Assembly (NCBI GenBank): GCA_015680905.1
Contig: CM027385.1
Coordinates: 82,605,501 to 82,669,500, forward strand
Direction: 5' to 3'
DNA from: Coptis chinensis
Taxonomy: Eukaryota > Streptophyta > Magnoliopsida > Ranunculales > Ranunculaceae
Length of the DNA: 64,000 nucleotides
The notes below the pieces were generated by a model. That model saw only the letters and a program-made list of their open reading frames with translations. It had not been told where the DNA came from and searched no databases. Position numbers and translations under genes: made by a program. Below, piece after piece: positions 25,156 through 36,000 of this stretch. Positions within the stretch are counted from its first letter, which is position 1. Every line of letters starts with the position of its first letter.

Positions 25156-28100
25156 ATGAAGAGGTATAGAAACGGAGAAATTTGGGATTTTGAGAATGTA
25201 AGTAGAGATGGGGTGGAAGTAATACTTGGTTTAGATGGTGGAACAACTTCTACTGTTTGTATTTGTATGCCTGTTATGCCTTTTACTCTTAATATTCCAG
25301 ACCCTCTTCCTGTTCTTGCCAGGGCAATTGCTGGTTGTTCCAATCATAACAGTGTTGGAGGTAATTTTTAATTCTTCTTCTTCTTATAATTATTATTGTG
25401 TTTTGATCAGTCTTATTGGGAATGATGTGTAGAAGATTTGATTCATACAATATTGACATGTTTGGAGAATTTTTGATTATTCATAAGAGTGTTGTAGAAA
25501 CTAATGTGATGCTTATCATAGTATAGCAAAAGCTTACTTCTATCTGTATATATTTTTACGCCTAGTTTAAGACACGAATCACATTTTGGTGGTCGTTTCA
25601 AGGCCAGCCTAAATGCATTCTTCTCACCTTGCGCCTTAGTAACATAGTTCGATAGGCATTTAATATTTGTAGGAGTTTTAACACTACTGCTTCGCATTTT
25701 TGTAATTTCCCTATCAAATTAAAGGGCTACATTTGATAAAGTTTTCTACTGCCTACCTCGATATGAAGTTGGAATTTACTTTATCCCATTCCATGCTTCT
25801 ATAGTGATAATTTTTCCTTGTTTTATATTCTCCAATGGTTGTTTTCTTCCAAAGTTATATGTCCGACAATGTTGTATCCAATATAAGAGTTAAGGATTCT
25901 CACACGTGAAATGTGTTGGATGTTACAGAAACTGCAGCAAGGGAGACACTTGAAGAGGTTATGGCAGAAGCCCTTTCAAAATCTGGTTCAAATCGATCAT
26001 CTGTTAGAGCTGTTTGTTTAGCTGTGTCTGGTGTTAATCATCCCACAGATCAACAGAGGATATTAGATTGGCTAAGGTTTGTAGTTTTCAGTTTCAATGA
26101 TTTTATAACTGACATTTCTATATCACTTTTCTTCTTGTTATTTCTCGTTCATCGTCATTGTCATCATCATCATCATCATCATCATAGTCTGTATCTTCTT
26201 TTGAAATCTCTGGACATCGACTTTTGCCATCACATGGTCCCTTTTATATTTTTTATTAGCAAAGATGCAATATAGTATTAAAAATCCAACCAAAAAGATC
26301 AGTAGGACGGGTATTTTATGTAAGGCTATAATACAAGGACACATAATCGAAAGACAAAATGAACAGAAGAAAATCGGAAAAGGCTAATTCTCATGATCAA
26401 CGAGTCCCAACTAAATACTAAGTCTCTTATAGGCGTCTCTTTCCACCCCTTCCATATCTTTGAGTTAAAGCAAAATATGTCCCATGACTGAAATAACTAA
26501 ATAATCATCTCTTGCGAAGACGCCCCTTGATCTTCTTCTCTTTTTTTGTGACGATCATTGCATGCTCTGCCGTTCTGTTTATATTTCTGCACATTAAAGT
26601 CTAACTTCTTATCTCTCTAATTTGCTATCTTATATGTTTTCTTAGGGATATATTCCCAAGCCATGTGAAATTGTTTGTCCAGAATGATGCTGTGGCCGCT
26701 TTAGCTAGTGGGACAATGGGAAAGCTTCATGGATGTGTTCTAATTGCGGGTACTGGAACCATCTCCTATGGGTTCACCGAAGATGGAAGAGATGCTCGAG
26801 CTGCTGGTGCAGGACCTATTTTAGGTGATTGGGGAAGGTAAATATCCTCAAAAAATCTATCAGTGATATTACGTAGCACATGAGCCGTGCAATTGCAAAC
26901 GTATTTTGTGTTATGACCCTCAAATTGTTTGTGCTTTTTGACACACTAACAAACGTGGTCTTATAATTAGTGTTATTGGTATTTGCTATATTTTATTTTT
27001 GGGAACTTTTAAACAATTGGTTAAATGACCAGAAATGTTTCTGTAGTGGCTATGGAATCGCTGCACAAGCATTAACGGCGATAGTAAAAGCCAATGATGG
27101 TCGTGGCCCCCAGACAATGCTTACATCTAGCATACTCAGCACATTAGATCTTTCATCACCAGATGAACTTATCGGGTAATTTTCGTTGCAACTGTGTTTT
27201 CATCATCTAAGTTGTTCTTGCAGTTCCTAATTAACAATTTAGGTGTAGTATTCTGGTGCCCGCTTGAATGATGTATTGTTTTCGTATTGTGATTTAGGTG
27301 GACTTATGCAGATCCATCGTGGGCTCGCATTGCGGCACTTGTTCCAGTGGTAGTTTCTTGTGCAGAAGCAGGCGATCCAGTTGCTAATAAAATCTTACTG
27401 CTATCAGTCCAAGAGCTAGCTGAAAGTGTAAAAGCAGTCGTTCAGAGACTTGGCTTGTCTGGTGAAGGTTCGCTTTTATCAACTATGCACATTGAATATA
27501 CTAACTGGATACCAGCATATGAAGTTTTTTCTTCCTTTCAGAATGGGACTTTAGTAATACATATGATTTTAGTCCTTCAAACTCTTTTCTAAAGCATGTA
27601 AATGAGTGGATCAAATGCTTAAAACTTTTTTCATGAATTACTATTATGCGCATTTTAGTTAGAATATTATACTTTTGATCTGCCCTCAGAAAGCTTCTAA
27701 AATATTTGAACCGTTCAAATTCAGTGGAAAAGCTTCATATTTATAAGTGATCAAAATGTGCGTATGTACCATAAATTTCTAACATAAGCCTGGCTTAATT
27801 GCATTGTGAACTTGTGCTAGAAAGGAGTGGATCATATAATTGAAGGCTTTGTTCCTTATACCTGTCAGAATTTTCGTTATTATTGTTCTTATGCTTATTA
27901 AAACATCCTTGCAGATGGAAAGAATTATTTTCCACTTGTTATGGTTGGTGGTGTCCTTCAAGCTAATAAGAGTTGGGATATAGGAAGAGAAGTTATAAAT
28001 TGTATCTCCAAAGATTATCCTGGGGTTCATCCTATTAGACCAAAGGTTAGCTTGCAATGCAGTTTACCCTCTGAATATATTGATAATAGTCTCATTCAGA

Positions 28101-28209
28101 ACAAGGCTAATTTTATTTGTTGTATTCAAAGGTGGAGCCTGCAATGGGAGCAGCACTACTGGCTTGGAGATTCTTAATGAAAGAATCAGAAGACAAACTG
28201 AAGAGATGA
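25156..28209 (+). CDS. NAGK: N-acetylglucosamine kinase (BadF/BadG/BcrA/BcrD type)
   Basis: Seven exons: 25156-25360, 25929-26076, 26646-26837, 27047-27175, 27298-27467, 27915-28045 and 28132-28209, giving 350 aa. The ASKHA (actin-like ATPase) fold is clear. The phosphate-1 loop LGLDGGTTSTV is at about residue 25, the second nucleotide loop LIAGTGTISYGF at about 150, GPILGDWGSGYGIA follows, and the C-terminal sugar/ATP element is MVGGVLQANKSW. Known role: ATP-dependent phosphorylation of GlcNAc to GlcNAc-6-phosphate, salvage toward UDP-GlcNAc, in the cytosol. The start is the ATG at 25,156, giving MKRYRNGEIWDFE before the nucleotide loop, as usual in plants. Intron 2 holds a (cat)n run at 26,158-26,186. 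Confidence 0.92.
26158..26186. repeat. (CAT)n microsatellite in NAGK intron 2
   Basis: About nine uninterrupted tca/cat units, inside an intron. Confidence 0.85.
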
Positions 28210-29128: not shown

Positions 29129-29299
29129 ACGGCTTTAAGTAGAGGAACTCGTGTTGAGGCCAGAAGGGGCACAGAATGCTTAGAAGGGTGTCCTAAGTTT
29201 TTGATTTCATCACCTACATTTCACGGTGGTCGAGGTGCCTTACCTTCTGCTGGAGGTCATCCAGCGGATCTAACTTTCCTTGCCGGTGGTGGGTGCTGA
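29129..29299 (+). promoter_or_regulatory. Conserved upstream ORF with ACG start (ascorbate-responsive type)
   Basis: 56 codons from ACG at 29,129 to TGA at 29,297-29,299, ending 59 bp before the main ATG. The peptide contains VEARRGTECLEG, SSPTFHGGRGALPSAGG and a C-terminal LTFLAGGGC. The region is much richer in G and C than its flanks. VTC2/GDP-L-galactose phosphorylase mRNAs of plants are known to carry a highly conserved uORF that begins at a non-canonical ACG and lowers translation when ascorbate is high (Laing and colleagues, 2015). This peptide fits my memory of that uORF. The ACG has A at -3 and G at +4, a strong context. There is no in-frame ATG upstream within the open stretch. Confidence 0.8.
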
Positions 29300-29358: not shown

Positions 29359-32053
29359 ATGGTTACTGTCAAGCAATGTGAAGACGATTACTGTTTGATG
29401 AAGCATAGTGCTACTTCTGAGCTGTCCAAATGTCCTTCCCTTGATTTGCAAGGTTAGTGCCAATAATGCTTTTGTTTTTATGTTCATTTTGATTTTCATG
29501 CTTATGATGTGAAGTAGAGTGCATGTTGTGTAAGACATTTTATATCGCTGGTAATACAACACATTGGAGGAGATGATATATATTAATATCATTTGTTTGG
29601 ATGGCCATTGATCTCAGGTACTCGAGTTCCCATTTTCATGTTTGGTAGTCAGTCCTCCTTGGATAGTTGTGCCTATGGGGGGATTTTCAATACTCTTGAG
29701 AAGCAAAGTTTATTGGATTTACTTCTTCTTGCTCAGGTAGAGCATCCATTGATCCATATAATGTACTTTTTGGATGCTTGCAGCTCAGAATTATGTTTCC
29801 TAAATTAACTTAGTTATTTGCAGTGGGAAGATCGTGCATGGAAGGGACTTTTTAACTATGACGTGACCACTTGTGAAATGAAGGTGTTTTTCCATGTTTG
29901 AGTTTTGACTTCTGTAAGCAGTTAGTTTACTCTTATATCATACCATGGTCCTAATGTTATATCCATATTCAGGTGACTAATGGTTTGAAAAAGTTTGTTA
30001 CTCAGTTGAATGAAGAAAGGAGTGTTTTAAATTATCTTCCAGTGCTTAAGGAAAAAGGAGTGCGCCATCAGTTGTACCCTATCATACACAACTGCAAAAT
30101 ACCCATGGAAGAATTCCTTTTTGCTGTTACAACTGGAGAAAAGGCATTACCGAAGCTTATTCAGTCAGCCTCAGTGCCTGAAGATGTTAACTTGAGCATA
30201 ATCATCAATGTGAGTATTATATGATGATTTAATTGGTAAATTCTCTCAAATGTCGATACAATTACCCTTGTGGTTAAAATATCACATAACTAGATCAAAA
30301 GGCCAAGCAAATTGGATGACTCCTGCAAACAAGTATACTAAACATTGCCTCGTAATTGTCGACTGTTATGACTCCTCAATATAATGTGATAGTTTGTGCG
30401 ATAGAATTTGAGCTAGGATAGTAAATTTCAGCTTTATTTCATATTTGGCTGTTGACTGGTCGTTTTTAAAAGTGCCAGATTATGTTCACATTAAGGTTAC
30501 TGGTTTTACTTTTGTCAGAATACTCATCAAAGTTCTTAAGTTTAATTTTACTCTCTTTTACGTAAAGGCAAACCCCGTTGATTATGGCCATGTCTTCCTT
30601 CTACCAAGCGGTTATTGTGGTTTATCAAGGATCCTGGATTCAAGACTGTTAGAAATGGTCACGCGTTTTGCTTTGGAAATAAATAATTGCTCATTTCGCA
30701 TCTTTTATGACTTTTCTGCATCAAATTCCAACCAGCAATGTGTCCAGGTACTGTGTGTAGCTCTACCCTGATTTCTTCCACCTTGTGTGTATGATGTTTT
30801 CGTGCTGACAATGTAGCTTGACCTTTTAAGTTTAAATCATGTTTGAAGTTGGTTTAATACATCTTATTTTAGTTAACAATCAAGATTTGACCTGATTTCT
30901 CTCATGTGACAGGCTTGTTATCTAGCGATCCCTTTGCCGGTGGAGAGTATGCCAGTTGCTACTCTATCTGGTAACTGGGGAGAAAGAGGGTTACATATCT
31001 CTGAGGTTACAGATTACCCTATCAAAGCTCTCTCTTTCAAAGGATATGGAAACTTAAAATTGCTGGTCGAGGTGGTCTCAGAGATATGTTCCTGTTTACA
31101 AAAGCTGAACAACCCGTATAGCTTGCTTATCACTGACTTTGGTACAAATATGATGTTGTTTCCTCAGGTAAAGAAACCTTATTTATTCTTATTTTAAATG
31201 ACCGCTCATACTGGTAAATAATATTGAAGGTCCGGTTGATCAGTATCTTACTTGATTGCTTCAGTATAACCAACTCCAGACACCGAGCTACTTGACTAGC
31301 TTCTCACTACATCTTTCTAGTAACGGAACTTCATTATATATTCCAATTGGTTGAAAGTGTTTAATACTGGTCTGTTGGAACTTTCTCTAAAATTGTTTTG
31401 TAACAAAGTCAAGGCTTATATTCTTCAAAAAAGGAAACAGGTTGAAACAATTTCCACAGATGTGTTACTTCTTTTATGAGTTTCAGTCGTTTTTGTAAAG
31501 GCATTGTTTTGAGCCTAGAAATTTACTCTGTTAAAATATTTGTCATAAATACACCATCAAATGGCAAATGCTCTGAAGTTGTACATTTGAACTGTAAAAA
31601 AAATTATTTAGAAATAAAACTTAACCAACTCCGGGGTGGAAGGTTATTTTGAGCTTCCCTAACCCCTCCCCTTAATTACACTCATACAGGAAAAGTTTGC
31701 ATTGATAGTATTCAACTGACCATCCTTGCCTCTCTCACTGATTCCCCCCTCTCTTCATGAGAAACCTGAAACACATGTTTGATATATACTTCATGCTAAA
31801 TCATGCCAACTAACTGTGGAAGATTTGATTTGTCTGTTGAATGGCTCAGAACACTTGCTGCAGCCTCTCAGCTCTGGAATGTGGTGGGCACTTTGTATTC
31901 AAAACAAAGCACGAGTTTGATCAAGCATCCGAGGAAGCTCTTCTAAAGCGTCTGGCTGATGCATCTCTTGGCAATGAAGACTTCTTATCAGTAAAACAGC
32001 TTTGTTTCCGCATTGCAGATCAACTAAGTTGTTCTAAAATGGAGCATGCATAG
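29359..32053 (+). CDS. VTC2-like (GDP-L-galactose phosphorylase family) protein, catalytic motif lost
   Basis: Seven exons: 29359-29452, 29618-29736, 29824-29883, 29973-30209, 30568-30747, 30913-31167 and 31850-32053, giving 382 aa. Family marks: GTRVPIFMF near the start, WEDRAWKGLFNYDVTTCE, VTNGLKKFVTQLNEER, NPVDYGHVFLLPSGYCGL, ACYLAIPLPVES, LLITDFGTNMMLFPQ and CGGHFVFKTKHEFDQASEE. True VTC2/VTC5 enzymes turn GDP-L-galactose and phosphate into L-galactose-1-phosphate and GDP, the controlling step of ascorbate synthesis, through a histidine in an HxHxQ motif. Here the matching positions read NQQCVQ across the exon 5/6 junction, so both histidines are gone (Q and C). The linker before CGGHF is shorter than in VTC2, and the usual C-terminal tail is missing. 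The frame is intact with no stops, so this is a pseudo-enzyme rather than a pseudogene. The start of exon 7 (after cag at 31,849) is the least certain border. Confidence 0.85.
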
Positions 32054-33098: not shown

Positions 33099-36000
33099 AT
33101 GCCTCCAAAAGCTTCAAAGAATAAAGATGCAGTAGTTGAAAGACCAATCTTGGGTAGATTTTCATCTCATTTGAAGATTGGCATCGTAAGTTTTTCTTAT
33201 AAAGTTTGTATTTTGATGTATTATTATTCATCACTAGTCACAAATTGATTGTTATTATAATGTAAATTGGTAGGTTGGATTGCCAAATGTTGGAAAGAGT
33301 ACTCTTTTTAACACACTGACAAAGTTATCGATTCCGGCTGAGAATTTCCCTTTCTGTACTATAGAGCCCAATGAGGCCCGTGTTCATATTCCTGATGAAC
33401 GGTTTGATTGGCTTTGCCAACTGTTCAAGCCCAAGAGTGAGGTTTGTTATTTTTCTATTTCAAGTTGTATTCTTTTTGATTGGTAAGCCTGTTTTAAATG
33501 ATATCAGTAACTCTTTGATATATATTAGTTGGTGCTAATTCATAGGTTCCAGCTTTTTTGGAAATACATGATATAGCTGGACTTGTTAAAGGTGCTCATG
33601 AAGGGCAGGGGCTTGGAAACAATTTCTTGTCTCATATTCGTGCGGTGGATGGAATCTTCCATGTCCTACGTAAGCTTCTTTTCATTCAAGTATTCCTTAT
33701 CCTTATGTTAGTCTCTACTGTAAAAAAGAAACTTATGTTTTATTCCGTTCTTTAGGTGCATTTGAAGATCCAGATATCATTCATGTTGATGATTCTGTGG
33801 ATCCCGTGAGGGATTTAGAGGTTATTACTGAAGAGCTGCGGCTGAAGGTATTTGGGGCGCTCTTTTAGTTTAACTTGATTTATTGCATTGTGAAACATGC
33901 TTCAAATTACTTGGTGACCAGAAATTGCTCATTGCATACAGCAAATGTAACTAGCAAATGATAACTGGCAGTCTTCTTTCTATGTTGTAGGATATTGAAT
34001 TTATGGAGAGGAAGGTGGAGGATCTCGAAAAGAGCATGAAAAGGAGCAATGACAAGCAGTTGAAGTTAGAGCATGAGTGTTGCGAGAAGGTTCTGAGTCT
34101 CACTCTCTGGATATTTTTGCATTTTTATTTGCATGTGATATTCTGTTGAATGTGTTATCTCCCTATTTTTTGTTTTCTCGTTGATCATATAATTGTGCAT
34201 TATTTCTTGAATATTAGGCATCATCTCAAGTGCTACTGTTGTTCTCATTATTGCATATCATCTGTGAGAGTCGAAGTATATATACTATGTTGTTTTGTCG
34301 TTCAAGATATTGCTTGTACATCCATGGACATGAATATGTGTTATGTAGATTAAATATGAAGTTAATGGGATCCAGATTGCCTGACAAGAACAATTAGCAC
34401 AACAAATGAAAATGAAGTGTGAAATCAACTCCTTTGAACCTGAAGTTATGATCTTACTTTACACATTACGAGAATGATTTTAGTACATGGTTCCAGGTTT
34501 CCAAAACATGTATGGTTGTATCTAGACTCCTTGCTGGAATGTTTTCCAAGTTAAAACTTTGTGAAAGAAAATAAGAAAAGGATCTTCTACTCTGCTAGTA
34601 ATGTTACTTTTACCAATGGACATTTAACGTTTATGGTTTTTTTTCCCACTTGCTAGATGCTATAACTTAAGAAAACTAGACAATTGAGGAAGCTAATTGT
34701 ACTTGTGCATGCTTGGTTTGTATCCACAACTATCATTTCTGTTAAGAGTTCCATTTATGGCCTAGGTATCTTGTCCTTGAACAAGCTAACATTAGTAAGC
34801 AGCTTTCCTTTGTCTACCTTGGAGGTCTGGGACTACTTCTCATGTCTCTCATTGCATTGCTACAGATCCAAGCATGGCTCAAGACTGGAAAAGATGTTCG
34901 GCTTGGGGATTGGTCTGCTGCGGATATTGTTATCTTGAACACGTTCCAGCTTCTCACTGCCAAACCTGTTGTCTACTTGGTACGCCACATTATTATCTTG
35001 TATTCCATTGTGTGACTGAGATCTCATGTGCTTCACATTTGATTAGTGAATCCTACATTCCTACCCACACTTTGGATGCTATGTTGAAATAGCTTTAGGA
35101 GTTTAGGTTTAGGAAACCACATATTTTTATTTTTATATGATGAAATGGGATGGTAAAGGTTTTCTACTCTTGGAACATAATTTTGTTCCGTATGTAATTC
35201 ACTTTAGATTTTGATACCAAATTACCAAGTAATAAAAAAAAAGACACTTTAAATTTTGATAAATTTATACTGTATGCAGGTTAACATGAATGAGAAGGAT
35301 TATCAGAGGAGGAAAAACAAGTTTCTCCCGAAAATTCATGCTTGGTATGTTCATAATTCTGTGCAATGTAGGTTACAAATTCCACTTATATCTACCCCAT
35401 TTTCTAGTTTCCTCCCCAACAAAGCATGAAATTTTTGAAAGTAGATAGTAAAAGTATTTCTCTGTGCAACATTGAAATCTCCTCTCTGCTTACATGCCAC
35501 TGAGTTGGAGAGTGAGGACGTATCCAATTAATGTAAAGTTGTTATTCAACCTCTTTATCCCCATGACTCTTAGGGTAGGGTTATCTGCAGGTCTCTTTTT
35601 CTTTTGGTGTAAACGCACTTACATAATCATTTTATCAGGGTTCAAGAGCATGGCAAAGAACAAATTATCCCATTCAGCTGTGCTTTAGAAAGAACTCTTA
35701 CTGATTTGCCGGAGGATGAAGCTGCAAAGTATTGCAAGGAGAACGAAGTCCAGAGGTATCCGTGCTTGGAAATACTGGAAGAATTGAATCATTGCAGTAT
35801 TGTAATATAATATGCCATGAAATCTTTAATTGTGACGGAGTTCATTGGACTGGTCTCATGAAGCCCATTTTGGTGATAAATCTGTGTTGCATATGAAGTC
35901 ATTATCTAATGCCCTTCTATATACATGTCTCTGGTCTAAACTGTTGAAAATTGTTTCTGCAGTGCCCTCACAAAGATCATAAAGACTGGATTTTCTGCAA

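Follow-up and report, generated by a model that had tools for sequence, protein, structure and literature searches.

A candidate pseudo-enzyme of the GGP/VTC2 family in Coptis chinensis beneath an apparently constrained ACG-initiated uORF

A stretch of 64,000 nucleotides of the Coptis chinensis genome (the window), drawn from one contig of an assembly of 936 Mb in 116 contigs, contains a seven-exon gene at 29359-32053 on the forward strand whose stop-free frame encodes a 382-residue protein of the VTC2/GGP family. Both histidines of the catalytic HxHxQ motif are absent from this protein. Judging from sequence comparisons, and with moderate confidence, we read the window gene as an old paralogue of GDP-L-galactose phosphorylase (GGP/VTC2) whose product has no activity but is kept by selection, a pseudo-GGP that would act by binding. 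The intact spliced frame, the lack of HxHxQ, an apparently constrained block of codons in the leader uORF, and an 11:1 retention of canonical residues relative to a decayed copy of the gene are all consistent with such a protein.

An earlier, first-pass annotation of the window had described the frame and all splice phases as intact, and the gene model bears this out. Every intron is GT-AG, and the seven exons follow the same phases as those of L010, the canonical GGP/VTC2-type gene of this genome, whose exons measure 112, 119, 60, 243, 186, 249, and 345 nt. The two proteins are co-linear and share 123 of 370 aligned residues (33%), and main-frame synonymous divergence between the two genes is saturated, yet the window frame is open. 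Homologous sequence and shared exon phases argue for membership of the GGP/VTC2 family by descent. Three parts of the L010 protein have no counterpart in the window protein when the two are aligned: the KKRP stretch, defined as a nuclear localisation signal (PMC6878703), some 16 residues close to where exon 7 begins, and the C-terminal tail. The features referred to in the text are as follows.

29129-29299, forward strand: leader uORF of 56 codons plus stop, with an ACG start in the context ATCACGGC and the block SPTFHGGRGALPSAGGHPADLTFLAGGG near its end
29359-29452, forward strand: exon 1 of the gene model, with the ATG; 6 of 31 aligned residues identical to L010
29618-29736, forward strand: exon 2, with the same length (119 nt) and phase as exon 2 of L010; 8 of 40 residues identical
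29824-29883, forward strand: exon 3 (WEDRAWKGLFNYDVTTCEMK); 14 of 20 residues identical to L010
29973-30209, forward strand: exon 4, without the KKRP stretch of the canonical protein
30568-30747, forward strand: exon 5, 180 nt against 186 nt in L010, with YGHV kept and both catalytic histidines absent
30730-30747, forward strand: NQQCVQ at the end of exon 5, where L010 has NHLHFQ (HxHxQ)
30913-31167, forward strand: exon 6; 33 of 83 aligned residues identical to L010
31850-32053, forward strand: exon 7 with the stop codon, matched by an L010 exon-7 query
G000 C9:29084000-29091000, reverse strand: L010, canonical GGP/VTC2-type gene with NHLHFQ

On the 5′ side of the window gene, the product of the neighbouring gene (27293-28209) matches the BadF/BadG ATPase family; this neighbour, which ends near 28209, is probably an N-acetylglucosamine kinase. 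The 3′ neighbour begins at 33099, encodes a match to the MMR_HSR1 GTPase family, and is presumably OLA1/YchF.

At the end of exon 5, codons 30730-30747 read NQQCVQ, as the first-pass annotation had reported, at the same exon 5/6 junction where L010 reads NHLHFQ. The HxHxQ motif that characterises a GGP/VTC2 enzyme is therefore absent from the window protein. Exon 5 of the window gene is two codons shorter than that of L010, and the two available alignments place this gap differently. The DNA alignment sets it on the histidine codons, so the histidines may have been deleted instead of replaced by glutamine and cysteine; the protein alignment sets it a few residues earlier, which brings NQQCVQ opposite NHLHFQ and the cysteine opposite the second histidine. 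The loss of both histidines is certain, while the substitution proposed in the annotation, of the catalytic histidine by cysteine and of its partner by glutamine, holds in one of the two alignments. The known enzyme carries its nucleotidyl intermediate on the second histidine of the motif (PMC10069634), and the normal GGP reaction is therefore not expected here.

The cysteine opposite the second histidine, combined with the retained final glutamine of the motif and the retained upstream YGHV, raises the question of altered chemistry, in which the NQQCVQ cysteine would serve as a nucleophile or the fold would support a different nucleotide-processing activity. We consider this highly improbable. 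By the DNA alignment, the histidine codons are more likely to have been deleted than replaced, and the 24 residues leading up to the junction (6 of 24 identical to L010) are no better conserved than exon 5 overall (15 of 60). Identity on the junction side exceeds only that of exons 1 and 2, unlike what a working active site would be expected to show.

A wrong gene model or an assembly error might instead be hiding the histidines, since the model is drawn from genomic sequence and other family copies in this assembly carry stops. However, HxHxQ is absent from the three forward-strand frames between about 30501 and 31100, and the annotation's own refuting condition, another exon 5/6 junction that restores the motif, found no support, with none of 70 donor × acceptor combinations near the junction yielding it. 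A separate copy of the gene, L009, moreover has the same motif sequence. Such an artefact would be very improbable.

The first-pass annotation had also noted a retained uORF, and this is borne out by the 56-codon frame at 29129-29299, whose ACG context ATCACGGC is identical in L010 and the window gene. Over a 28-codon block, 22 residues are identical between the two genes, and the 17 differing codons comprise 11 synonymous and 6 non-synonymous changes (dN 0.24, dS 1.50; approximate Fisher p 1e-4). Purifying constraint on this block of the window gene is supported by these comparisons. Outside the block, the uORF can scarcely be aligned with that of L010. Published GGP uORFs start with ACG (or AUC), and a conserved uORF from a non-canonical ACG start, as defined in the same sources (PMC6878703, PMC11066809), is present in the window gene. 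GGP uORFs are considered to stall ribosomes, possibly in an ascorbate-dependent manner (PMC6878703, PMC11066809); one review adds that there is as yet no direct evidence that ascorbate itself acts on the GGP uORF (PMC11066809).

Between the two paralogues, the leader-peptide block (22 of 28 residues identical) is better conserved than the main protein (123 of 370). This difference would be expected if the selected part were the uORF or the mRNA and the main protein mattered little. However, both the 11:1 retention and the reduced divergence of the exons, described below, are features of the main frame, which makes selection on the leader or transcript alone improbable.

An inverted copy of the window gene, L009 (G000 C9:82725001-82734000), lies about 90 kb away on the opposite strand of the same contig. 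Within the 9 kb fetched, it contains exons 5-7 only and is decayed, with frameshifting gaps. The motif DNA CCAACCAGCAATGTG is common to L009 and the window gene, and the histidines were therefore lost before that duplication. The two sequences differ at 34 residues; with L010 as a distant outgroup to polarise the changes, the canonical residue is kept 11 times by the window gene and once by L009, the other 22 differences being uninformative (p = 0.006). We regard this 11:1 retention as the strongest sign, at the level of sequence, of a protein still selected without its catalytic residues. Divergence between the window gene and L009 is lower in exons (57 of 606 sites) than in introns 5 and 6 (90 of 688, counted in well-aligned stretches only), a weak difference (p = 0.043). 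The pairwise omega, estimated over 197 codons after 15 gapped codons were dropped, is 0.55, with a bootstrap interval of 0.32-1.04 that reaches neutrality. An omega near 0.55 would be expected from a constrained window gene if L009 drifts. Changes at codon positions 1, 2, and 3 number 21, 16, and 20, with no excess at the third position.

Several of these observations would equally be produced by slow decay, in which an old inactive GGP paralogue has kept its frame open by chance and carries its uORF as a remnant. The 33% identity to L010, the loss of the NLS-like KKRP, of the exon 7 residues, and of the tail, the width of the omega interval, the lack of a third-position excess, and the decay of the nearby copy L009 all lean in this direction. 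Slow decay has more difficulty with the constraint on the uORF block, with canonical residues retained at 11:1 since a duplication that came later than the loss of the histidines, and with 382 codons free of stops and frameshifts despite saturated synonymous divergence from L010. On balance, it appears rather unlikely. The first-pass annotation's conserved pseudo-enzyme is thus upheld in part: the signs of constraint after the duplication favour it, while the omega interval does not separate it from neutrality and the selection evidence is drawn from one genome.

The candidate pseudo-GGP has to be viewed beside L010, which is the only other full-length GGP-family gene in the assembly among the matches listed; an L010 exon-7 query of the genome likewise matched, among the matches listed, L010 and the window gene only. 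The uORF of L010 is intact, and its 437-codon frame is open but for one in-frame TGA, which lies upstream of NHLHFQ. At face value, the assembly contains, among the matches listed, no full-length GGP-family frame without interruption apart from that of the window gene. The TGA could be real, could be an assembly error fed by repeats, or could be tolerated. Arabidopsis vtc2 vtc5 double mutants stop growing at germination unless supplemented (PMC11066809), and the genome has two places with PF04030, the last-step oxidase family. For these two reasons, it seems likelier that L010 contains an error or that the assembly misses a GGP gene than that the plant has no GGP.

VTC2-like gene parts are also present in at least 10 dispersed copies (L011-L017, L032-L034). 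Seven copies compared with L010 are 90-94% identical to it over about 2 kb. In eight pairs compared, the longest shared block measures 2.6 to 6.4 kb, and in seven of the eight it extends well past the VTC2-derived part. The shared blocks reach beyond the VTC2 sequence, and a VTC2 fragment was therefore apparently captured by a mobile element, which seems to have spread it. We rejected the notion that L010-L017 are all working genes, given a stop at one common codon. This same-codon stop occurs in eight of ten spanning sequences (L010, L011, L012, L013, L015, L016, L017, and L034) and is TAA in L011 and L034. The site is gapped or altered in L014 and L033, where it reads neither TGA nor TAA, and the segment is absent in L032.

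Set against the majority of the copies, L010 shows 8 synonymous and 6 non-synonymous codon differences, and 36 of 1160 non-coding sites differ as well. These counts hint at past constraint on L010 (p = 0.03 with an assumed neutral share of 0.72). In an unrooted tree, L010 sits beside copies L011 and L016; the tree is nearly star-like, a shape that speaks against a simple picture of L010 as parent and the others as its copies. Querying the genome with the uORF gave six places among the matches listed: L010, the window gene, three that fall by coordinates inside copies L013, L016, and L017, and one at C2:8.34 Mb (L039). The last was rejected as a further gene, as the 8 kb fetched there hold only the uORF and exon 1. 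These sit in repeat sequence common to L016, and L039 may represent the 5′ part of L011, detached from that copy.

Compared with the plant GGP enzymes VTC2 and VTC5, the window gene shares seven exons in the phases of L010, a conserved ACG-initiated uORF, and co-linearity over 370 residues. It differs in having neither HxHxQ nor KKRP, in its shortened exon 7 and tail, and in its 33% identity. Loss of the HIT domain has been described before in this family: 3 of 35 GGP homologues, from rice, Amborella, and Physcomitrium, are reported to be without HIT domains and also without the NLS (PMC12537018). Likened by description, these homologues resemble the window protein in both absences, and unlike the window gene they come with no mention of a uORF or a selection test in the accessible portion of that source. 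The Angiosperm II GGP clade is described as an old angiosperm duplicate under possibly more relaxed constraint (Tao et al. 2020, PMC7640755). Its eudicot members, again compared by description, have 5-6 exons, against 7 in the window gene (PMC7640755).

A functional analogy may be offered by KONJAC1 and KONJAC2, inactive proteins that resemble VTC1 (about 31% similarity) but carry two additional residues in their catalytic domain. They bind VTC1, a GDP-mannose pyrophosphorylase, and raise its activity by 100% and 50%, respectively (PMC11066809). They are inactive relatives of an enzyme of the same pathway with a small indel in the catalytic domain, as the window protein would be. They belong to another protein family, and binding is reported for KONJAC, whereas for the window protein it is a prediction.

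Database searches yielded little beyond these comparisons. Scanned against Pfam, neither the window protein, the uORF frame, nor the canonical protein matched a GGP family; the sole match was a sub-threshold hit to SHNi-TPR. An NCBIfam scan of the window protein gave no match. In PDB sequence searches, the window protein had no match and the canonical protein had five, all at chance level. No relative was found by a GTDB scan or a viral contig scan with the canonical protein as query.

If the window gene does encode a pseudo-GGP, its mode of action might be pictured as follows. Lacking the HIT nucleophile, the protein would be unable to form the guanylylated-histidine intermediate. At high ascorbate, its translation would be repressed via the uORF; at low ascorbate, it would be made and would act by protein binding. 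Likely partners would be active GGP or PLP, a PAS/LOV protein and an inhibitor dissociated by blue light, which keeps GGP inactive until blue light releases it (PMC11066809). The pseudo-GGP would then either activate GGP or titrate its inhibitor PLP, on the same principle as the inactive KONJAC proteins that bind and activate VTC1 in this pathway. We put forward only tentatively, by analogy, this idea of an inactive GGP paralogue under the enzyme's ascorbate-linked uORF as a feedback-controlled activator or inhibitor-decoy. Two further points weigh against a pseudo-GGP: with 33% identity and several other losses, its binding surfaces may have changed as well, and the active GGP that it would regulate, L010, carries a TGA in this assembly.

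In the literature searched, mostly at the level of listings and abstracts, we saw neither a KONJAC-like layer acting on GGP nor a functional inactive or pseudo-GGP. While loss of the HIT domain in a GGP homologue is already known, its combination with a constrained ACG uORF and with signs of selection after the loss is undescribed as far as these searches go. GGP is regarded as the step at which plants chiefly control vitamin C synthesis, and biofortification efforts target its uORF (PMC11066809). A paralogue that combines HIT loss with a constrained uORF would add an unexamined player to the vitamin C feedback loop, and the window gene would test whether the uORF can control something besides catalysis. 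Surveys that count each GGP homologue as an enzyme could overcount. If the proposal is true, the rate-controlling step of vitamin C synthesis would come under a KONJAC-like level of control.
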